Shown one piece after another: positions 12,182-24,005 of a DNA stretch of 32,354 nucleotides. The first letter of the stretch is position 1. Every line of letters begins with the position of its first letter. Under the pieces are notes generated by a model, which had not been told where the DNA came from, did no database searches, and was given only the letters and a program-made list of their open reading frames with translations. The stretch lies in contig JADCJL010000170.1 in assembly GCA_020247055.1 (NCBI GenBank), positions 1 through 32,354 of the forward strand, read 5' to 3'. Both the position numbers and the translations under genes were made by a program. Source of the stretch: Acidobacteriaceae bacterium (GTDB lineage: Bacteria; Acidobacteriota; Terriglobia; Bryobacterales; Bryobacteraceae).

Positions 12182-15100
12182 TTAGAACGTAAATTTCAAC
12201 GCCATCTGCACCAGCCGCGCATTCACCGACGTCGACAAAATCTGGCCGTAGCCCGCGTTGTCGATGTTGTTGCCCGGATTGCCGAAGTTCGGCTGATTCA
12301 GCAGGTTGAACATCTCCGTCCGGAACTGCGTCGCAAACCGCTCGCCGAACCGGAAGTTCTTGAACACCGAGAAGTCCACCGTCGTCTGCCCCGGCCCGCG
12401 CAGCATGCCGCGGCCCGAGTTGCCGTAGGTGCCCCGCGGCGCCCGCGTAAACGCCGCCGGATTAATATAGTTCCGCAGCTTGCTCTTGAGGTCGCCCGGC
12501 GTCACCAGCGGCACCCCCGCCGTTACGTTGGCAAAGAACGGCGCCGCCGGATCGGTCGCGATGCCGCCCAGACCCTGGCCGCTGTCGCGGTTGAAGACCG
12601 TCACCGGAGTACCCGTCTGCGTCACGAAAAACGCGTTCAGGCTCCAGTCATTCAGCAGAAACTTCCCGGCCCCGCTCCCGAACCGGTTCGGCAGATCCTG
12701 GTTGACCACCAGGGTGAACCGGTGCGTCCGGTCAAAGTTCGCCGGACCTTTGGCGCGGCTGAAATCGTTCCAGGGCGTCGGGAAAAGTCTCGTGCAGAAC
12801 CGCGCGCTCTCGTCGCCGTTGCCCAGCGCCTTGCCCCAGGTGTAGGCCCCCTGCATCGTCGTCAGCTTGCTCCGCTTCTTCACCGTGGTCTGGAAAGAGT
12901 GGTAAGTCGACGAACCGTTCTGCGCCGTGATCAGCAACGTGCCGAACCCCGGGTACCGCCGCACCGCGGTGCCGTCGGCCTGCGGAATGATCGGGTTGAA
13001 GTTCCGCCGCGCCATCAGGTTGGTGCCCTTCGTGCCAACGTAAGCTGACTCCACCAGCACATTCCCCGGCAGCTGCTTCTGGACGCTGAAGTTGTACTGC
13101 CAGGCGTTGTCCAGCTTGGTCTGCCGTTCCGTACCCCACACTTGCAGCTGTTGGGTCGGGGAGGTGGGGAAGGGAATCCGCGTCGGGTCATAGCCCGGGT
13201 CCAGGTAGGTCCAGTTGTCCGGCGTATTCAGCCGGCAGGGTGTCCCCGGCGCCGCGCAGTCCGCCTCTAACTGTGTAGAGGTCGGCGGGTTGTTAAACGC
13301 CTGCTGCGCAATCTGGCCGGTCCGCGTGTCATAGTAAAGCCCGGCGCCCGCGCGAATCACCCAGCTGTCGGTCACCCGGTAGGCGATCCCCAGCCGCGGC
13401 GCGAAGTTATTGCCGTCGTTATAAACACCGCTCTTCGGCACCCCGTTCACCCCGCCCTGCACAATGCCGGAACTGGCAAGCGAACCCACCCCCGTGTAGT
13501 TCTCCGGCCACCAGTTCACCATGCCCAGGTTATAAGCTGCCGGCTGGAAGTGATACTCGTACCGCGCTCCCACGTTCACCGTCAGCCGCTCGCTCACCTT
13601 CCAGTCATCGTTAATGAAACCCGACATCAAATTGTCGCGCATCTTCAACTCCCCACCGGCTCCCGGGGCGCTGAACTGCTTCAGCCGCGCATGGCTCAGC
13701 AGGAAGTCGGCGTACTCGTCGCCGCTCGCCTGTCCGTTGTACTGCCACAGCCCCCGGCTTACCTGCGCGTTCTTCGGGTTGTAGTCGGATACCTGGCTCT
13801 CCGCGCCGTACTTGATATTGTGCTTGCCGCGAATCCAGGTCATCGTGGCGCCCATCGTGTAGCGCTTGATGAAGTCCGACCAGTTGGCCTGGTTGCCGAA
13901 CTGCACATAGTTCAGGATGTTGATGCGGGGCATCCCGTCCAGATTGGTGACGGAGAGCGGCCGCAGCCCCACGGCGGTCGGAGCATCGGAGTTCTGCATC
14001 TGCAGAAACTGCGAGGAATCGTCAAAACCAAACCGCGATTCAAGCACCTGCGTGGCGCTGAACAGATGCGTGTACGTCACATTGCCCGAGTCCTTCTGCC
14101 GGTTGGCAATGTTGCCGAATCCCGGCAAACCCTGCCCGAAGGGCGTCAGGTCGCCCTGCTTGCTCTTAAACCAACGACCCGAAATCGTGTCGTTCGATCC
14201 GAGCCGGTGGTCCAGTTTCACCGTCCACATATCGATATCGGTCGCAATCGAACGGGCCGCGAAGAAGTTATTCGCACCGAAAGAGAAGTTCGGCGAAGGA
14301 ATAAACCGGTCCTGAATCGCCTTCGAAATCGGGTTGATGCGCGAAGCCGGAATAATTGCCCCCGGGAACGGTTGCCCGGTCACCGGATCATTAATCGCCC
14401 GCCGCGCCGAAAAGTCACCACTCCGCATCGGCACCGTCGGCACAATCCGCTGAATCGCCGCATTCGCCGAGTTCGCATTGCGCTGCCGCGAACTCTCCCA
14501 GCCAAAGAAGAAAAAGGTCTTGTCCTTGCCGTTGTAAAGCTTCGGAATCACCATCGGGCCGCCAATGTTGCCGCCAAACTGGTTCTGGTTGTTCTGGCCG
14601 CGCACGGGGTTGAAGAAGGGCCGCGCGTTCAGCTTCGTATTGCGCAGGAAGTTATACGCCGCGCCATGGAACTCATTGGTTCCGCTCCGCGTCGTCACGT
14701 TAATCGTCGAACCCAGGTTCCGCCCGTACTCGGCGCTGAACAGGCTCGTCATCACCTTGAACTCGCCCAGAAACTCAATCGACGGCGTCCCGTCACCGTC
14801 CGGCGCGTTGTTCAGCGGATTCGTGGTCGGCACCCCGTCCACCAGCAGGTTGTTGCTGCCCCGCCGCGCCCCGTTCACGCTGACGCTGTCGCTCCCCGTC
14901 CCCGGGTTATCGGCGTTGAACACGGAACCCACCACCCCGGCCGACGTCCCCAGAATCTGCGTGAAGTTCCGCGTCGCCAGCGGAATCGATTGAATCGTCC
15001 GCTGCTCCACCACCTGCCCGATCGTCACCTTCTCGCTCTGCAGCAGCGGCGTCTCGGCCGTCACGTTCACCGTATCGGTCACCTGCCCCACGCTCAACGT

Positions 15101-15412
15101 CACGTCAATGCGCGCCCGCTCGCTCGTGTTCACAATCACGCCCGTCTGCTGCACGCGCTGAAAACCCTTGCTCTCCACCACAATCCGGTACGTCCCGGAC
15201 CGCAGCAGCGGAAAAAGATAGTTGCCCGCGTCATCGGTTACCGTCCGGAATTCTCCGCCGGTCTGCGCGTTCGTCGCCGTCACCGCGGCGCCCACAATCA
15301 CCGCGCCGGTCGGATCCTTCACCGTCCCGGTCACACTGCCCGTTGTTTCCTGAGCGGCCAACGGCGCCAGCCCGAGGATGATCCCAAAGCAAAATTTAAC
15401 GGCCTGATTCAT
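12182..15412 (-). CDS. Oar-like TonB-dependent receptor (receptor 2)
   Basis: The 1076-residue outer-membrane receptor has a signal peptide (1 to about 20, PLAAQ). The carboxypeptidase-regulatory-like domain (about 22-110) includes GSVTGTVKDPTGAVIVGAAV and GNYLFPLLRSGTYRIVV. A plug (about 115-255) contains VNGARRGSNNLLVDGV and SGTNEFHGAAYNF. The barrel ends in MALKFTF. It lies 19 nt downstream of the phosphoesterase gene and 7 nt upstream of the CRTAC1-type gene on the same strand. A TATACT box lies 7 nt before the ATG and there is no Shine-Dalgarno, so it may also have its own leaderless promoter. Base composition is more balanced than in the two genes after it. Substrate is unknown; the linkage suggests that receptor, propeller and TPR proteins work together at the outer membrane. 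Confidence 0.9.
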   Translation of the reverse strand: MNQAVKFCFGIILGLAPLAAQETTGSVTGTVKDPTGAVIVGAAVTATNAQTGGEFRTVTDDAGNYLFPLLRSGTYRIVVESKGFQRVQQTGVIVNTSERARIDVTLSVGQVTDTVNVTAETPLLQSEKVTIGQVVEQRTIQSIPLATRNFTQILGTSAGVVGSVFNADNPGTGSDSVSVNGARRGSNNLLVDGVPTTNPLNNAPDGDGTPSIEFLGEFKVMTSLFSAEYGRNLGSTINVTTRSGTNEFHGAAYNFLRNTKLNARPFFNPVRGQNNQNQFGGNIGGPMVIPKLYNGKDKTFFFFGWESSRQRNANSANAAIQRIVPTVPMRSGDFSARRAINDPVTGQPFPGAIIPASRINPISKAIQDRFIPSPNFSFGANNFFAARSIATDIDMWTVKLDHRLGSNDTISGRWFKSKQGDLTPFGQGLPGFGNIANRQKDSGNVTYTHLFSATQVLESRFGFDDSSQFLQMQNSDAPTAVGLRPLSVTNLDGMPRINILNYVQFGNQANWSDFIKRYTMGATMTWIRGKHNIKYGAESQVSDYNPKNAQVSRGLWQYNGQASGDEYADFLLSHARLKQFSAPGAGGELKMRDNLMSGFINDDWKVSERLTVNVGARYEYHFQPAAYNLGMVNWWPENYTGVGSLASSGIVQGGVNGVPKSGVYNDGNNFAPRLGIAYRVTDSWVIRAGAGLYYDTRTGQIAQQAFNNPPTSTQLEADCAAPGTPCRLNTPDNWTYLDPGYDPTRIPFPTSPTQQLQVWGTERQTKLDNAWQYNFSVQKQLPGNVLVESAYVGTKGTNLMARRNFNPIIPQADGTAVRRYPGFGTLLITAQNGSSTYHSFQTTVKKRSKLTTMQGAYTWGKALGNGDESARFCTRLFPTPWNDFSRAKGPANFDRTHRFTLVVNQDLPNRFGSGAGKFLLNDWSLNAFFVTQTGTPVTVFNRDSGQGLGGIATDPAAPFFANVTAGVPLVTPGDLKSKLRNYINPAAFTRAPRGTYGNSGRGMLRGPGQTTVDFSVFKNFRFGERFATQFRTEMFNLLNQPNFGNPGNNIDNAGYGQILSTSVNARLVQMALKFTF

Positions 15413-17929: not shown

Positions 17930-18835
17930 ATGCACCTGCTCGACGCCATCGGCAACACGCCGCTCTTCCGGCTCGACCGCCTCACTGCCCACCTACCCGG
18001 CATCGAACTCTACGGCAAAGCCGAGTTCTCGAACCCCGGCGGCAGCGTCAAAGACCGCCCGGCGCTCAACATGATCCTCGACGGCGAACGCCGCGGCCTC
18101 CTCACCCCGGACAAAATAATCCTCGACTCCACCTCCGGCAATACCGGCATCGCCTACGCCATGATCGCCGCCGCCCGCGGCTATCAGGTCAAACTCTGCC
18201 TCCCCGCCAACGCCTCTCCGGAACGCAAACAGATCCTCGCCGCCTATGGCGCCGAACTCGTCCTCACCGACCCCGCCACCGGCTCCGACGGCGCCATCCG
18301 CGAGTGCAAGAAGATCTACGCCGCCGACCCCGGCCGCTACTTCTACCCCGACCAGTACAATAACCCCGCCAACTGGCAGGCCCACTACCAAACCACCGCC
18401 CTCGAAATCCTCGCCCAAACCGATCACCGCATCACCCACTTCGTCGCCGCCATGGGCACCTCCGGCACCTTCGTCGGCACCACCCGCCGCCTCAAAGAGG
18501 TCAACCCCGCCATCCAGTGCCTCTCCGCCCAACCCTCCAGCGGCTTCCACGGCCTCGAAGGGCTCAAGCACATGCCCACCGCCATCGTCCCCGGCATCTA
18601 CGACGAATCGCTCGCCGACGACAACCTCTGGATTGAAACCGAAGACGCCTACCGCATGGCCCGCCGCCTCGCCCGCCAGGAAGGCCTCCTCGTCGGCATC
18701 TCCGCCGGCGCCAATGTCCACGGAGCCCTTTCGCTCGCTGAACGCATCAAAAAAGGGGTCATCGTCACCATCCTCTGCGACGGCGCCGAAAAGTACCTCT
18801 CCGAACCCTTCTGGAACGACCCTCAATACTCATGA
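17930..18835 (+). CDS. cysM: Cysteine synthase, CysM type (probably CysO-thiocarboxylate dependent)
   Basis: The 301-residue PLP enzyme belongs to the cysteine synthase family. PLP lysine is K41 in NPGGSVKDR. The substrate loop is SGNTG (69-73), the phosphate-binding loop GTSGT (176-180), and the end reads LCDGAEKYL (282-290). Its neighbours, a JAMM peptidase, a CysO-like carrier and a MoeZ-like activator, match the M. tuberculosis CysM system, in which sulfur comes from a protein thiocarboxylate and the acceptor is O-phosphoserine. At the place of the mycobacterial Arg that binds that phosphate (R220, from memory of the family), this protein has K213 in LKHM, so a positive charge is kept. 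O-phosphoserine use is therefore likely but not proven. The stop overlaps the next start (ATGA). Confidence 0.9.
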   Translation: MHLLDAIGNTPLFRLDRLTAHLPGIELYGKAEFSNPGGSVKDRPALNMILDGERRGLLTPDKIILDSTSGNTGIAYAMIAAARGYQVKLCLPANASPERKQILAAYGAELVLTDPATGSDGAIRECKKIYAADPGRYFYPDQYNNPANWQAHYQTTALEILAQTDHRITHFVAAMGTSGTFVGTTRRLKEVNPAIQCLSAQPSSGFHGLEGLKHMPTAIVPGIYDESLADDNLWIETEDAYRMARRLARQEGLLVGISAGANVHGALSLAERIKKGVIVTILCDGAEKYLSEPFWNDPQYS

Positions 18836-19248
18836 TCCGCGTACACCCCGAACCCTGGGCCACCATGGTCGCCCACGCTGAAGCCACCTACCCCAACGAG
18901 TGCTGCGGCGCCATGCTCGGCACGGCCGATGGCGACGACAAAACCGTCACCGTCGCCCTCCCGCTGGAAAACGCCTACACCGGCGCCCAGGAAGACCGCT
19001 ACGAAATCCGCCCCGAAGATCTCCTCCGCGTCGAGCGCGAAGCCCGCCAGCGCGGCCTCGACGTCATCGGCATCTTCCACTCCCATCCGGACTGCGACGC
19101 CTACTTCTCGAAAACCGACCTCGAAAACTCCTGCCCCTGGTACAGTTTCATCGTCCTCAGCATCCAAAAAGGGAAGTTCCACCACGCCAACAGCTGGCTC
19201 CCCAACGCCGAGCAAACGAAAGCCGAGCAGGAGCCTTTAGAATATTAA
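18832..19248 (+). CDS. mec: JAMM/MPN+ metallopeptidase (Mec-like, processes CysO)
   Basis: The 138-residue zinc peptidase has the complete JAMM signature: E23 (YPNECCG), H83 and H85 in HSHP, seven residues, then S93 and D96. It is cytoplasmic and small, as for bacterial Mov34/MPN/PAD-1 proteins linked to sulfur carriers. In M. tuberculosis Mec+ cuts the cysteine-CysO adduct to release cysteine. In Pseudomonas QbsD and Wolinella HcyD homologues also trim extra residues from the carrier's C-terminus. Both jobs fit here because the adjacent carrier ends in GGRS. The ATG overlaps the cysM stop, showing translational coupling. It is followed after 11 nt by the carrier gene. Confidence 0.9.
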   Translation: MIRVHPEPWATMVAHAEATYPNECCGAMLGTADGDDKTVTVALPLENAYTGAQEDRYEIRPEDLLRVEREARQRGLDVIGIFHSHPDCDAYFSKTDLENSCPWYSFIVLSIQKGKFHHANSWLPNAEQTKAEQEPLEY

Positions 19249-19259
19249 GGAAACGTCTC

Positions 19260-19538
19260 ATGGCCAAGATCCTCATCCCCACCCCCCTGCGGCAGTACGC
19301 CGAAAAGAATAACTCCGTCGAAGTCTCCGGCTCCACCGTCGGCGAAGCGCTCGCCAACCTCACCACGCAGTTCCCCGACCTCCGGAAGAACCTCTACAAC
19401 GACGAAGGCAAACTCCGCAGCTTCGTCAACGTCTACGTCAACGACGAGGACATCCGCTACCTGCAGAAGGATGCCACCGCCATCGCCGATGGCGACACCA
19501 TCTCCATCGTGCCCTCCATCGCCGGCGGCCGCTCCTAA
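19260..19538 (+). CDS. cysO: CysO-like sulfur carrier (ThiS/MoaD fold) with masked C-terminus
   Basis: The 92-residue ubiquitin-fold sulfur carrier resembles mycobacterial CysO along its length: VGEALANLTTQFPDL, LRSFVNVYVNDEDIRYL and TAIADGDTISIVPSIAGG. ThiS/MoaD carriers are adenylated and thiocarboxylated on a terminal Gly-Gly. Here GG (89-90) is followed by Arg-Ser, so the tail must be trimmed before activation, most likely by the JAMM peptidase encoded next door. It is the sulfur donor for CysM. AAGGA at 19247-19251 gives a good Shine-Dalgarno for the ATG at 19260; the upstream open frame in this phase is not coding. The MoeZ-like gene follows after 9 nt. Confidence 0.9.
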   Translation: MAKILIPTPLRQYAEKNNSVEVSGSTVGEALANLTTQFPDLRKNLYNDEGKLRSFVNVYVNDEDIRYLQKDATAIADGDTISIVPSIAGGRS

Positions 19539-19547
19539 CCACCTGTC

Positions 19548-20675
19548 ATGCTCACGCAAGAAGAGATCTCCCGCTATAGCCGGCACCTCATCATGCCGGA
19601 GGTCGGCGTCGCCGGCCAGGAAAAACTCAAAGCCGCGAAAGTCCTCCTCATCGGCACCGGCGGCCTCGGCGCCCCCGTCGCCATGTACCTCGCCGCGGCC
19701 GGCGTCGGCACCATCGGCCTCGTCGATTTCGACGTCGTCGATGTCTCGAACCTCCAGCGCCAGGTCATCCACGGCACCAAGGACATCGGCAAGAAGAAGA
19801 TCGACTCGGCCGAAGAGACGATGCGCGACATCAACCCGCTCATCAAAATCATCAAGCACGAAGTCGCCCTCTCGAGCGCCAACGCCCTCGAAATCCTGAA
19901 GGATTACGACATCATCGCCGACGGCACCGACAACTTCCCCACCCGCTTTTTGATCAACGACGCCTGCGTCCTGCTCAACAAGCCCAACGTCTACGCCTCC
20001 ATCTTCCGCTTCGAAGGCCAGGCGACCATCTTCGCCGCCGAAGGCGGCCCTTGCTACCGCTGCCTCTATCCGGAACCGCCTCCTCCGGGCCTCGTCCCCA
20101 GCTGCGCCGAAGGTGGCGTGCTCGGCATTCTCCCCGGCGTTGTCGGCCTGTTGCAGGCCACCGAAGTCGTCAAGCTCATCCTCGGCGCCGGCGAACCGCT
20201 CATCGGCCGTCTGCTGCTTTATGACGCCCTCGCCATGAAGTTCCGCGAACTCAAGCTCCGCAAGAACCCCGAGTGCCTCTGCGCCACCGGCCAAGTGAAG
20301 CTCATCGACTACGAACAGTTCTGCGGCATCCCCAAACAACCGGAGCCCCCGCCCATGTCTGCCGAAATCAGCCCCAAAGAAGTCAAAGCGCTCATCGACG
20401 CCAAGGAAAACTTCGTCCTCATCGATGTCCGTGAGCCGCACGAGTTCCAGATCGGCCGCATCCCCACCTCCACGCTCATCCCGCTCGGGGATCTGCCGAA
20501 AAAGGTAGCCGAACTCGATCCCTCCGCCCACTACGTCCTCCATTGCAAGATGGGCGGCCGCAGCGCCAAAGGGTGCGACGTTCTCCGCCAGGCCGGCTTC
20601 AAGAACGTCCGCAATATGACCGGTGGCATTTCGGCCTGGTCCGATCAGGTCGATCCGTCCGTACCCAAGTATTAG
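19548..20675 (+). CDS. moeZ: MoeZ-like adenylyltransferase/sulfurtransferase (ThiF/MoeB + rhodanese)
   Basis: The 375-residue protein has an E1-like ThiF/MoeB domain (about 1-250) and a rhodanese domain (about 272-368). ATP-binding GTGGLG is at 36-41, N68-R71 in SNLQRQ, and TDN at 127-129. Cys186 (PSCAEGG) is the likely thioester/persulfide Cys and C333 in HCKMGGRS is the rhodanese Cys. It should adenylate the trimmed carrier's C-terminus and then place sulfur on it. The structural zinc pair C169/C172 is normal, but the second pair is C243-L-C245, a CxC where MoeB-type proteins normally have CxxC. The gene completes the cysM-mec-cysO run. No clear Shine-Dalgarno precedes the ATG. Confidence 0.9.
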   Translation: MLTQEEISRYSRHLIMPEVGVAGQEKLKAAKVLLIGTGGLGAPVAMYLAAAGVGTIGLVDFDVVDVSNLQRQVIHGTKDIGKKKIDSAEETMRDINPLIKIIKHEVALSSANALEILKDYDIIADGTDNFPTRFLINDACVLLNKPNVYASIFRFEGQATIFAAEGGPCYRCLYPEPPPPGLVPSCAEGGVLGILPGVVGLLQATEVVKLILGAGEPLIGRLLLYDALAMKFRELKLRKNPECLCATGQVKLIDYEQFCGIPKQPEPPPMSAEISPKEVKALIDAKENFVLIDVREPHEFQIGRIPTSTLIPLGDLPKKVAELDPSAHYVLHCKMGGRSAKGCDVLRQAGFKNVRNMTGGISAWSDQVDPSVPKY

Positions 20676-20687
20676 TCATCAACGATT

Positions 20688-20720
20688 CATAGGCTACGCG
20701 CTACGATGGTGTAGCCTATG
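20688..20720 (+). promoter_or_regulatory. 10-bp inverted repeat enclosing the receptor 3 start codon
   Basis: cataggctac (20688-20697) pairs perfectly with gtagcctatg (20711-20720) around a 13-nt loop. The ATG of receptor 3 is the last three bases of the right arm. If transcribed from upstream, the start codon would be base-paired. A TACGAT box (20702-20707) in the loop could instead start a shorter transcript lacking the left arm. The repeat may also be a DNA-binding site or a weak terminator of the cys operon. Confidence 0.5.
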
Positions 20721-23700
20721 CGTCGATTTCTGCTTTGTCTGCTGGCCCTCGCGGCCCTTCCCCTCTCTGCCCAGTTTGACTCGGCCACCGTCCTCGGCCT
20801 CGTCCGCGACTCCTCGGGCCTCGGCATCCCCAAAGCCAAGCTGAAACTCACCAACGTGCGCACCGGCGTCGAAGCCTCCGCGGAGGCCGATGGCGCCGGC
20901 GCTTATCAATTCCTCACCGTCCGCGCCGGCCGCTACAAGATCGCCGCCGAAGCCGCCGGCTTCAAAACCGCGGTCGCGCAGGAGTTCGAAGTCACCGTCA
21001 ACGCCCGCCAGCGCGTCGACCTCCAACTCGAAGTCGGCGCCACCACCGAAAGCGTTACCATCAACGCCGCCGCCCAGGTGCTGGAAACCGACACCAGCTC
21101 CCGCGGCACCGTCGTCGGCACCCAGCAGGTCGTCAACCTCCCGCTCAACGGCCGCGCCTACGCCGACCTCGCCCTCCTCGCCCCCGGCGTCCGCCGCAGC
21201 GGCATCGCCAACTCGCGCGACGCCTCCTTCAACGTCAACGGCATGCGCAGTTCGCAGAATAACTTCGTCGTCGACGGCGTCGACAACAACTCCTACGGCA
21301 CCTCGAACCAGGGCTTCTCCAATCAGGTCGTCCAGATCACCCCGGACGCCGTCCAGGAGTTTCGCCTCGAAACCAACAACTTCTCGGCCGAATTCGGCCG
21401 CGCCGGCGGCGCTGTCATCAACGCCTCCATCCGCAGCGGCACCAACGAACTCCACGCCTCCGTCTGGGAGTACCTGCGCAACACCTCGCTCAACGCCACC
21501 GGCTTCTTCAAGCCCGTCAACAATCAGAAGCCCACGCTGATCCAGAATCAGTTCGGCGCCGCCATGGGCGGAGCGCTCGTCAAAAACAAGATGTTCGTCT
21601 TCGGCGACTACGAAGGCTACCGCCGCGTCAGCCGCACCATCACCTACGCCACGCTTCCCTCGCTCGCCATGCGCCAGGGCAACCTCGGCATCCCCATCCG
21701 CAACCCCTACACCGGCGAAATCTACCCGAACGGTGTCATCCCCGCCAGCGCCATCTCCCGCTCGGCCCGCGAAATCCTCGCCGACCTGCCCGCGCCCAAC
21801 CGCGCCGGCACCGGCCCGCTTGGCGTCGGCAATAACTTCGAATCCCAGCCCCGCCGCACCGACCAGAACGACAAAGGCGACATCCGCTACGACCAGTACT
21901 TCAACGACAAGTGGACCGCCTTCGCCCGCTACAGCCACCGGCTGATGAACAACCTCGAACCGCCCGCCATCCCCGGCCCCTCCGGCGGCGACTCCAACGG
22001 CACCGTCCGCGTCCGCAACGAACAGATGGCCGTCGGCAGCACCTACACCATCAACCCCACCTCGCTCATCGAAATCCGCGCCGGCATCTCCCGCACCGAA
22101 GGCGGCAAGTTCCCCATGTTCGTCGGCACCCCCACCATCGGCGACCGCTTCGGCATCCCCAATATCCCGAACGATCCCCGCTTCACCGGCGGCGTCATGA
22201 GCACCGGCATCAATGGATTCACCTCCATCGGCGTCCAGGGCTCGAACCCCCAGTTCCAGAACCCCTTCGTCATCAACCCCAAAGTCAACTATTCCAAGAT
22301 CCTCCGCAAACACAGCCTCAAAGCCGGCTACGAGTACCAGAGCATCGATACCGACATCGATGACTTCAACCCCAAATACGGCTCCAGCGGCTTCTCTGGC
22401 CGCTTCTCGCAGGCCCCCGGCACGCCCAACGACGACCGCCAATTTGTCGCCGACTACCTGTTCGGCGCCCGCTCCACCTACCAGCTCAACACGGCGACCA
22501 TCGTCAATTACCGCCAGCGGATGCACTTCCTCTACCTCCAGGACGACTACAAAGTCTCCCGCCGCCTCACGCTGAACGTCGGCCTCCGCTACGAGTTCGC
22601 CACCCCGCAGTGGGAGGGCGCCAACCGCCTGTCCAACTTCGACCCGGCCACCAACACCATGGTCTTCGCCAAGGACGGCTCCCTCCGCGACCGCGCCCTC
22701 GTCAACCCCGACCGCAACAACTTCGCCCCCCGCATCGGCGCCGCCTACACGCTCAACGATAAGACGGTCCTCCGCGCCGCCTTCGGCGTCAGCTATCTAC
22801 ACTTCAACCGCATGGGCGGCGAAAACCTGCTCGCCTACAACCTGCCGTTCATCCTCAACCCGAACATCAACCAGGTCGCCCCGGCCGTCCCCAGCGGCGG
22901 GCAGCCCCTCTGCCCCTCCACCGGCAGCTACAACCCGGCCACCTGCTTCCTGCCCTTTGAGCGCGGCTTCCCGAACAACTTCCTCAACATCGCCAACGTG
23001 CGCACCAACACCGTCCGCACCAACCAGATCCCCTTCGGCCTGCCCTCGGCCTCGGTGAAGAGCACCCACTTCACCATCCAACGGCAGATCGCCGCGGGCC
23101 TCGTCCTCGACCTCGGCTACGTCGGCACCTTCGGCCGTAACATGATGATCCTCGGCGACCTCAACACCGCCCGCGTCAATCAGCCCGGCCAGAATCTGCC
23201 GGTCGATGCCCGCCGGCCCATCCAGGGCTTCAGCTACATCCAATCGGCCTTCCCCGGCGGCTTCCTCGACTATCACGCCTTCCAGGCCAAGCTCGAGCGC
23301 AAGTTCTCGAACGGCTTCTACTTCCTCAACTCCTTCACCTGGTCCAAGGCCATCGACAACGCCTCGGGCCATCTCGAAGCCCAAAACGGCGACAACAGCC
23401 GCGTCAACTACGAAAACCTCGCCGCCGAAAAAGGCCTGAGCGGCTACGACCAGCCCTTCAATAACGTCACCACGTTCCTCTACGACCTGCCCTTCGGCCA
23501 GGGCCGCCGCTTCGGCGCCGGCTGGAACAAGGCTACCGATCTGGTCGCCGGCGGTTGGCGCCTTTCGGCCATCAACTTCGCCGGCAGCGGCACGCCGGTC
23601 AACCTCAGCTGGGGCCCGTCGGCGCAGTTCCAGGTGAGCGGCGCACCCACCTACCGCCCCAACATCTCCGGCAACCCGCTCGTGCCCGAAGGGCAGCGGT

Positions 23701-24005
23701 CGGTAGCGCGCTGGCTCGATTCGGCGGTCGTCTCCATCCCCACCGACCCCCGCTTCCCCTTCGGCAACGCGGGTCGCAACATCGTCCGCGGACCCTCGCT
23801 CCAACAGATGAACTTCGGCCTCCACAAGGACTTCTACATCACCGAAAAGTTCAAGACCGAGTTCCGCATGGAAGCCTTCAACTTCTTCAATAAAAGCAAC
23901 CTCGGCAACCCGAACGGCAACCGCTCGGCGGGCGGCTTTGGCACCATCACCGGCCTGAACGGGCCGGCGCGCGAAATCCAGTTCGCGCTCCGCTTGGCGT
24001 TCTAA
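20718..24005 (+). CDS. Oar-like TonB-dependent receptor (receptor 3)
   Basis: The 1095-residue receptor has a signal peptide (1-18, LSA/QF). The carboxypeptidase-regulatory-like domain (about 20-110) includes GLVRDSSGLGIPKAKLKL and YQFLTVRAGRYKIAAEA. A plug (about 115-255) contains LPLNGRAYADLALLAPGV, FNVNGMRSSQNNFVVDGVD and SGTNELHASVWEYL. The barrel ends in IQFALRLAF. The order matches receptors 1 and 2 but the three differ clearly in sequence, so they are old paralogues and not recent copies. There is no Shine-Dalgarno and the ATG lies in an inverted repeat. It starts 42 nt after moeZ and is followed by a hairpin and an exported NHL-like gene. Substrate unknown. Confidence 0.9.
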   Translation: MRRFLLCLLALAALPLSAQFDSATVLGLVRDSSGLGIPKAKLKLTNVRTGVEASAEADGAGAYQFLTVRAGRYKIAAEAAGFKTAVAQEFEVTVNARQRVDLQLEVGATTESVTINAAAQVLETDTSSRGTVVGTQQVVNLPLNGRAYADLALLAPGVRRSGIANSRDASFNVNGMRSSQNNFVVDGVDNNSYGTSNQGFSNQVVQITPDAVQEFRLETNNFSAEFGRAGGAVINASIRSGTNELHASVWEYLRNTSLNATGFFKPVNNQKPTLIQNQFGAAMGGALVKNKMFVFGDYEGYRRVSRTITYATLPSLAMRQGNLGIPIRNPYTGEIYPNGVIPASAISRSAREILADLPAPNRAGTGPLGVGNNFESQPRRTDQNDKGDIRYDQYFNDKWTAFARYSHRLMNNLEPPAIPGPSGGDSNGTVRVRNEQMAVGSTYTINPTSLIEIRAGISRTEGGKFPMFVGTPTIGDRFGIPNIPNDPRFTGGVMSTGINGFTSIGVQGSNPQFQNPFVINPKVNYSKILRKHSLKAGYEYQSIDTDIDDFNPKYGSSGFSGRFSQAPGTPNDDRQFVADYLFGARSTYQLNTATIVNYRQRMHFLYLQDDYKVSRRLTLNVGLRYEFATPQWEGANRLSNFDPATNTMVFAKDGSLRDRALVNPDRNNFAPRIGAAYTLNDKTVLRAAFGVSYLHFNRMGGENLLAYNLPFILNPNINQVAPAVPSGGQPLCPSTGSYNPATCFLPFERGFPNNFLNIANVRTNTVRTNQIPFGLPSASVKSTHFTIQRQIAAGLVLDLGYVGTFGRNMMILGDLNTARVNQPGQNLPVDARRPIQGFSYIQSAFPGGFLDYHAFQAKLERKFSNGFYFLNSFTWSKAIDNASGHLEAQNGDNSRVNYENLAAEKGLSGYDQPFNNVTTFLYDLPFGQGRRFGAGWNKATDLVAGGWRLSAINFAGSGTPVNLSWGPSAQFQVSGAPTYRPNISGNPLVPEGQRSVARWLDSAVVSIPTDPRFPFGNAGRNIVRGPSLQQMNFGLHKDFYITEKFKTEFRMEAFNFFNKSNLGNPNGNRSAGGFGTITGLNGPAREIQFALRLAF

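Follow-up and report, generated by a model that had tools for sequence, protein, structure and literature searches.

Positions 17930-20675 of the window, as we call the whole 32,354-nucleotide stretch of acidobacterial DNA analyzed here (contig JADCJL010000170.1), contain a single run of four intact genes, all on the plus strand: a cysteine synthase (CysM), a JAMM metallopeptidase, a CysO-like sulfur carrier and an activating enzyme (E1) with ThiF and rhodanese domains. The cysM gene (17930-18835) specifies a pyridoxal phosphate-dependent enzyme of 301 amino acids (PALP, E-value 3.5e-69), and overlaps by ATGA (18832-18835) the gene for the 138 amino acid Mec-like JAMM protein (18832-19248; Prok-JAB, 4.5e-26). 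The carrier, a beta-grasp protein of 92 amino acids, is encoded at 19260-19538 (ThiS, 3.4e-15), followed by the ThiF/MoeB-type E1 with its C-terminal rhodanese domain at 19548-20675 (375 amino acids; ThiF, 2.2e-82; Rhodanese, 2.5e-20). All of these Pfam matches exceed their cut-offs. A sequence-only reading of this DNA had described a tight four-gene run that includes the activating enzyme, and both the coordinates and the Pfam matches bear it out. The set has what is expected of the CysO pathway of cysteine synthesis, namely a carrier homologous to CysO, an adjacent intact JAMM enzyme, a rhodanese-bearing E1 and a cysteine synthase. The genome is in 358 contigs, is 97.7% complete and is close to metagenome-assembled genomes of Bryobacteraceae, with a carrier 99% identical among the matches listed.

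The residues expected for catalysis are in place. In the JAMM protein, the motif HSHPDCDAYFSKTD (19078-19119) supplies metal ligands and the serine; the Glu, the H-x-H pair, the Ser and the Asp are invariant in all 211 aligned JAMM sequences of the fetched loci, window included. The E1 conserves the adenylation-loop glycine, and its rhodanese cysteine is present in 220 of 221 aligned rows, while its score against the curated MoeZ model (504) is below the cut-off of 647. CysM exceeds the NCBIfam cut-off for cysKM (TIGR01136, 352.5 bits) and falls below that for cysM (TIGR01138, 362 bits against 394); the lysine of its GSVKDR motif is kept in 189 of 189 aligned relatives. Reading substrate specificity from CysM residues was dropped, as the candidate basic residue is lysine in 189 of 189 and arginine in E. 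coli CysM too.

The carrier has an unusual end. Its closest solved structure is M. tuberculosis CysO (3dwg_C, E-value 9e-19), whose chain stops at Gly-Gly, but translation of the window gene gives ...SIVPSIAGGRS, as the earlier reading had it. The Gly-Gly codons (GGCGGC, 19524-19529) mark the predicted cleavage point, directly after them, in view of the conservation of Ala-Gly-Gly in fused and unfused carriers (13 of 13 aligned for the latter). The Arg-Ser tail, or mask, is encoded at 19530-19535, where five aligned close relatives have Arg-Cys or Leu-Cys. In the QbsE/QbsD and HcyS/HcyD systems, residues past Gly-Gly are removed by a JAMM enzyme before thiocarboxylation, the products being thioquinolobactin for QbsE and homocysteine for HcyS; the window likewise combines residues past Gly-Gly with a JAMM enzyme in the operon.

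For comparison we drew on a sample of 396 genomes of the phylum (197 with a carrier match), on a contig profile search of which the best 80 of at least 478 matches were kept, and on near relatives (carrier in 88 of 101 genomes); additional stretches were also fetched. The acidobacterial carrier rows number 282, of which 258 are distinct. Dropped before counting were two copies of the window (L001, L112), a stray stretch (L285), a locus with a weak Prok-JAB match outside the operon, which we take to be RadC (L113), seven plasmid loci of other phyla (L214-L220), and carrier matches of fewer than 70 profile positions. A carrier was called JAMM-adjacent if a JAMM gene lay within 1.2 kb upstream; counts of tails, turnover and E1 starts used a main set of 203 rows with a carrier score above 110 bits and an E1 nearby. 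All counts are of related sequences, making P values indicative only.

Among 211 complete, distinct, JAMM-adjacent acidobacterial carriers, 111 have a tail past Gly-Gly, 98 continue in frame into the E1-rhodanese protein as fusions and two are bare; one further carrier is truncated. Distinct carriers without an adjacent JAMM gene, some of them on short contigs, comprise 19 tailed, 10 fused and 17 bare forms. Masking is thus the rule beside JAMM, and no particular mask is: the tails are hypervariable, 1 to 29 residues long, and share no sequence, so that a conserved two-residue extension, the check suggested by the sequence-only reading, was rejected. Provided that the tail is cut, a bare Gly-Gly end as in mycobacteria, absent from the window carrier, would count as a variant trait that the chemistry does not demand. 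Nor does JAMM require a mask, although the mask goes with JAMM, because bare carriers occur in JAMM genomes and, on actinobacterial plasmids, the carriers of two loci (L216, L217) end in bare Gly-Gly beside an adjoining JAMM gene, in the order JAMM-carrier-synthase; an E1 was not found within the stretch fetched for either.

A second carrier, often bare, lies directly 3' of a threonine-synthase homolog in several genomes (L148:1360-2595, L273:4723-5961, L206:4693-5943 and similar loci). Three such homologs, compared with NCBIfam, score above the TIGR00260 cut-off; the other neighbors of this kind were called by a weak synthase-profile match. Such a pairing could perhaps, as a speculation, serve carrier-fed homocysteine synthesis from O-phosphohomoserine.

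The fused carriers are laid out as carrier, Gly-Gly, linker, ThiF and rhodanese. Ala-Gly-Gly is invariant in 60 of 60 aligned fusions, while the linker is poorly conserved, its commonest residue averaging 34% of rows against 75-81% in the flanks. In a structure model of one fusion (L062, mean pLDDT 87), whose best structural matches are Uba4, MoeB and ThiF, pLDDT falls below 50 at residues 86-95, which are the Gly-Gly and linker. A FastTree phylogeny of 217 carrier and E1 rows implies 21 changes between fused and split forms (22 with one bare row), of which 10-11 are forced by well-supported branches. Since an E1 acts on a free C-terminal glycine, the fused forms make sense only with a cut after Gly-Gly. 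At one locus (L136:4837-6693, minus strand) JAMM, carrier, E1 and rhodanese share a single open frame of 619 codons, possibly a self-maturing polyprotein. Separately, some carrier-E1 loci have nearby a cysteine-synthase-like enzyme whose C-terminal region matches the rhodanese part of the E1 (L012:2279-3262, L143:6641-8020, L124:3878-5356).

The distribution of JAMM genes points to the trimming enzyme. Taking a best E-value below 1e-23 as a close carrier and a Prok-JAB match at 1e-10 or better as JAMM presence, 130 of 131 close-carrier genomes in the phylum sample encode JAMM, compared with 18 of 199 genomes lacking a carrier; two groups with weaker carriers gave 23 of 30 and 8 of 36. The 35 other carrier genomes without JAMM hold 45 carrier matches, of which the reading covered 30 loci, one in each of 30 genomes (the 15 left over include all those of the other five genomes): 28 carriers end exactly in Gly-Gly, one in Gly-Gly-Gly, and one is cut by a contig end. 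Conversely, in a list of 25 genomes picked mainly for a masked carrier with no JAMM gene in the stretch, though including five picked for a bare carrier, 24 have JAMM elsewhere, above cut-off. Four fused carriers of a sister family (L294-L297; scanned, outside the counts) have no JAMM gene within the 9-10 kb read, yet all four genomes encode one elsewhere; overall, JAMM is encoded in 26 of 26 genomes of that search, in some beside the carrier. The window genome encodes one Prok-JAB protein above the Pfam cut-off, and so does each of eight other genomes of the family that were searched.

Trimming of the carrier tail by JAMM is well supported by these comparisons, and we favor, at a probability of roughly 0.78, a CysO-type pathway that runs on a pro-carrier. 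The carrier would be made with residues past Gly-Gly, Arg-Ser in the window and other residues or a whole E1 in relatives, and the neighboring JAMM enzyme would cut after Gly-Gly regardless of what follows. By analogy with MoeZ and CysO, the E1-rhodanese protein would then adenylate the free glycine and convert it to a thiocarboxylate, which CysM would use to form carrier-bound cysteine; by analogy with Mec, the same JAMM enzyme would hydrolyze the carrier-cysteine bond. The tail would carry no sequence signal and be tolerated thanks to the presence of JAMM. The sequence-only reading had one JAMM enzyme acting twice on this carrier. Use of one enzyme for both unmasking and cysteine release is the best reading, because the genome has a sole Prok-JAB protein above cut-off, masks track JAMM genomes and fused relatives could not be activated uncut; Arg-Ser as a conserved signal, by contrast, is not upheld. 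The operon is a second cysteine route in this genome and not the only one, since CysE is also encoded, as is a further cysteine synthase whose family score is higher (441 versus 352 bits for the operon CysM). A synthase of the CysO pathway is expected to take the carrier thiocarboxylate and O-phosphoserine as substrates.

In many relatives, short tails would follow from gene overlap. Of 108 split loci, 64 have an E1 start codon no more than 16 bases from the Gly-Gly codons, and this start often falls within the tail. These codons read GGAGG in 31 of the 64 near-start loci, against 10 of 44 split loci with distant starts and 16 of 95 fusions (near-start versus fused, Fisher P = 3e-5, with related rows). 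The Gly-Gly codons thus probably double as the E1 ribosome-binding site in many relatives, and the carrier frame would therefore have to run past them, giving a short tail. In near relatives of the window, with carriers 89-99% identical, Gly-Gly is followed by CGA-TGC-TAA or CTA-TGC-TAA, in which ATG is the E1 start and the tails are Arg-Cys and Leu-Cys. Alignment with five of these relatives places 16 extra bases in the window at 19532-19547 (ends ambiguous by about one base), which account for the Ser codon, the stop codon (TAA) and the spacing to a separate E1 start. This insert was matched in 3 of 331 fetched loci, all copies of the window region. The Arg-Ser tail therefore looks accidental, as an insert seen only in the window genome appears to have split the carrier and E1 genes and replaced the E1-start overlap; Arg-Ser recurs once in acidobacterial rows, in a carrier 76% identical (L059), with different codons. 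Stop-codon readthrough from carrier to E1 in the window, where the frames agree, was set aside: 9 of 64 near starts are in frame, and the gap is the window-only insert.

Several observations weigh against this account. One genome with a fused close carrier (G140; 91% complete, 650 contigs) has no JAMM above cut-off, and another (G026), placed among those without JAMM, shows a weak Prok-JAB match over the Pfam cut-off (E-value 3e-7). The carriers that were read in genomes lacking JAMM are distantly related to the window carrier, so the JAMM contrast partly reflects family. Among carriers beside threonine-synthase homologs, tailed and bare forms number 9 and 10 with JAMM and 0 and 5 without (P = 0.12, a weak result from a hand count). 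Two carriers next to JAMM are bare, L270 and L259, the JAMM gene of the latter being cut by the contig end. As for the origin of the tail, long tails with distant E1 starts are unexplained by overlap, and the 18 bases that separate the Gly-Gly codons from the E1 start in the window are too many for a ribosome-binding site.

The sequence-only reading saw in the tail a built-in activation checkpoint. Under such a reading, selection would keep the tail so that activation waits until JAMM is present, and a dead-end carrier-cysteine would be avoided. The cutting step is common to both explanations, which differ in why the tail exists. Bare Gly-Gly ends are rarer than tail turnover would suggest, since the tree requires 35 or more changes of length for 114 tails, with one bare form in that set (P about 0.003 in a rough model that assumes a 0.2 chance per draw), and long tails and fusions persist where overlap offers no explanation. 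A checkpoint is nonetheless unlikely: neither sequence nor length of the tail is conserved, the actinobacterial plasmid carriers are bare beside JAMM, and the window tail comes from an insert seen only in its genome. Because an E1 start on a ribosome site in the Gly-Gly codons accounts for many of the relatives' short tails, a dedicated checkpoint is not needed. We also regard as improbable that another protease trims the carrier while JAMM merely frees cysteine or strips the carrier from proteins. Some masked carriers do lie away from a JAMM gene, and the protease acting on MoaX, a MoaD-MoaE fusion, was unidentified in PMC4326299; however, from genome to genome a close carrier goes together with JAMM, other genomes without JAMM proved to have a carrier ending in Gly-Gly where it was read, and a single frame spans JAMM, carrier and E1 in one relative.

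That the carrier is mainly a SAMP-like ubiquitin-like protein modifier, removed from its targets by JAMM, seems very unlikely, even though it scores above the curated NCBIfam SAMP1 cut-off (63.3 versus 60 bits) and the JAMM protein matches the desampylase model, below its cut-off (63.3 versus 130). Of 207 distinct loci with a JAMM-adjacent, E1-linked carrier, 186 have a strong cysteine synthase match close by, some of the others being cut by contig ends, and the E1 bears a rhodanese domain with a near-invariant cysteine. We give least credence, and very little, to a carrier that works uncut or is a relic beside a CysM using free sulfide. The second cysteine synthase and CysE would allow for this, as the route is not the sole one, but the operon occurs across many families of the phylum, and every complete fused or tailed form examined retains Gly-Gly, which speaks against an end that is never exposed. 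As regards a phage-defense role, the matches of the window in PADLOC are weak or partial (23.9 bits for JAB, and 64.4 bits across residues 6-177 for the highest-scoring E1-E2 model); the operon context is metabolic, and no search aimed at E2 genes was made.

One group of tails may have acquired a function. Cysteine accounts for 60 of the 460 residues in tails, compared with 110 of 4,531 in translated spacer DNA; with one tail per coded genus, it occurs in 9.7 of 33 genera where 3.8 would be expected (P about 0.002), and many cysteine tails come from a single genus (g5) of family f2, an acidobacterial family within the class of the window, presumably Acidobacteriaceae. Examples from f2, with a cysteine run at the end of the carrier gene, are CCCCCCL, SACCSCCPLL and TDAVSPCCSCCPSL. 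Tails with at least two cysteines, mainly TGT codons, were seen at L160, L161, L164, L165, L167, L169, L176, L177, L185, L192 and L196, with 120-411 bases then preceding the E1 profile match; lone cysteines were found in two tails of f2 (L125, L163) and one of another family (L210). A regulatory role is possible. Specifically, the f2 tail might be a cysteine sensor, in which scarcity of charged Cys-tRNA stalls ribosomes on the cysteine codons and alters expression of the downstream E1, an idea that we find unlikely and that resembles the one of polycysteine attenuators in mycobacteria. A pro-carrier with a lone-cysteine tail would be chemically the same as the carrier-cysteine intermediate of the pathway, which JAMM must accept anyway.

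In mycobacteria the E1 gene is located away from the cysO cluster. The M. tuberculosis CysO-CysM-Mec-MoeZ system (PMC3227635) otherwise has the same parts (homologous carrier, cysteine synthase, JAMM peptidase, E1-rhodanese), but its CysO ends in bare Gly-Gly (also 3dwg_C), unlike the GGRS of the window. The operon make-up itself is not new, because the same set (cysteine synthase, JAB, ThiS/MoaD and E1-rhodanese) is row 4c, for Solibacter usitatus, in the operon types listed in 2006 by Iyer, Burroughs and Aravind (PMC1779556); the portion of that account consulted suggests that JAB may free ThiS/MoaD from fused proteins, and makes no mention of tails or carrier-E1 fusions in such operons. Cleavage after Gly-Gly of a ubiquitin-like protein fused to a partner is needed for activity elsewhere: HvJAMM1 must cut a SAMP1-MoaE fusion for function (PMC4443979), DRJAMM cuts MoaD-MoaE (PMC8832034) and MoaX requires cleavage between Gly82 and Ser83 (PMC4326299). 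There, the partner is MoaE instead of an E1, and the pathway is that of molybdopterin. Ubiquitin-like domains are also fused to an E1-like enzyme in the Ubl-E1-TBP proteins of Thaumarchaeota (PMC2948915), for which the passages available mention neither a rhodanese domain nor a cysteine synthase operon. What sets the window operon apart from QbsE and HcyS is that product release, too, would fall to the JAMM enzyme, and that in relatives the mask is often a whole E1. Masked CysO carriers or CysO-E1 fusions were not found among the matches listed in a search of open-licence papers.

These comparisons suggest that the CysO route in a large soil phylum passes almost always through proteolytic maturation, with one JAMM enzyme both maturing the carrier and releasing the product. 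The carrier would often be delivered within its own activating enzyme, and in one case within a polyprotein of JAMM, carrier and E1, making this a bacterial counterpart of ubiquitin precursors. The protease may have become indispensable through a ribosome-binding site that the codons of a catalytic motif spell out. Such genes will be misread by annotation pipelines and modelers that look for a terminal Gly-Gly in carriers.

In Aliarcobacter cibarius plasmid pACIB (L215:1041-8270), cysM, JAMM, a carrier with an Ile tail and an E1 match are interspersed with IS elements, adjoining a family 2A encapsulin whose cargo is a cysteine desulfurase. A Burkholderia multivorans replicon has an E1, JAMM and an unannotated carrier (L214:4001-4279) that also ends in GGRS. 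The second zinc motif of the E1 is C-x-C in the window and eight close relatives (L032-L037, L223, L225); among the other rows of the 221 aligned, it is C-x2-C in 178, C-x3-C in eight and C-x4-C in five, with the pattern unmatched in 21. Near the operon are genes for two large beta-barrel proteins of the outer membrane that carry carboxypeptidase-regulatory domains, at 12182-15412 on the minus strand and 20718-24005 on the plus strand, the latter beginning 43 bases past the E1 gene.

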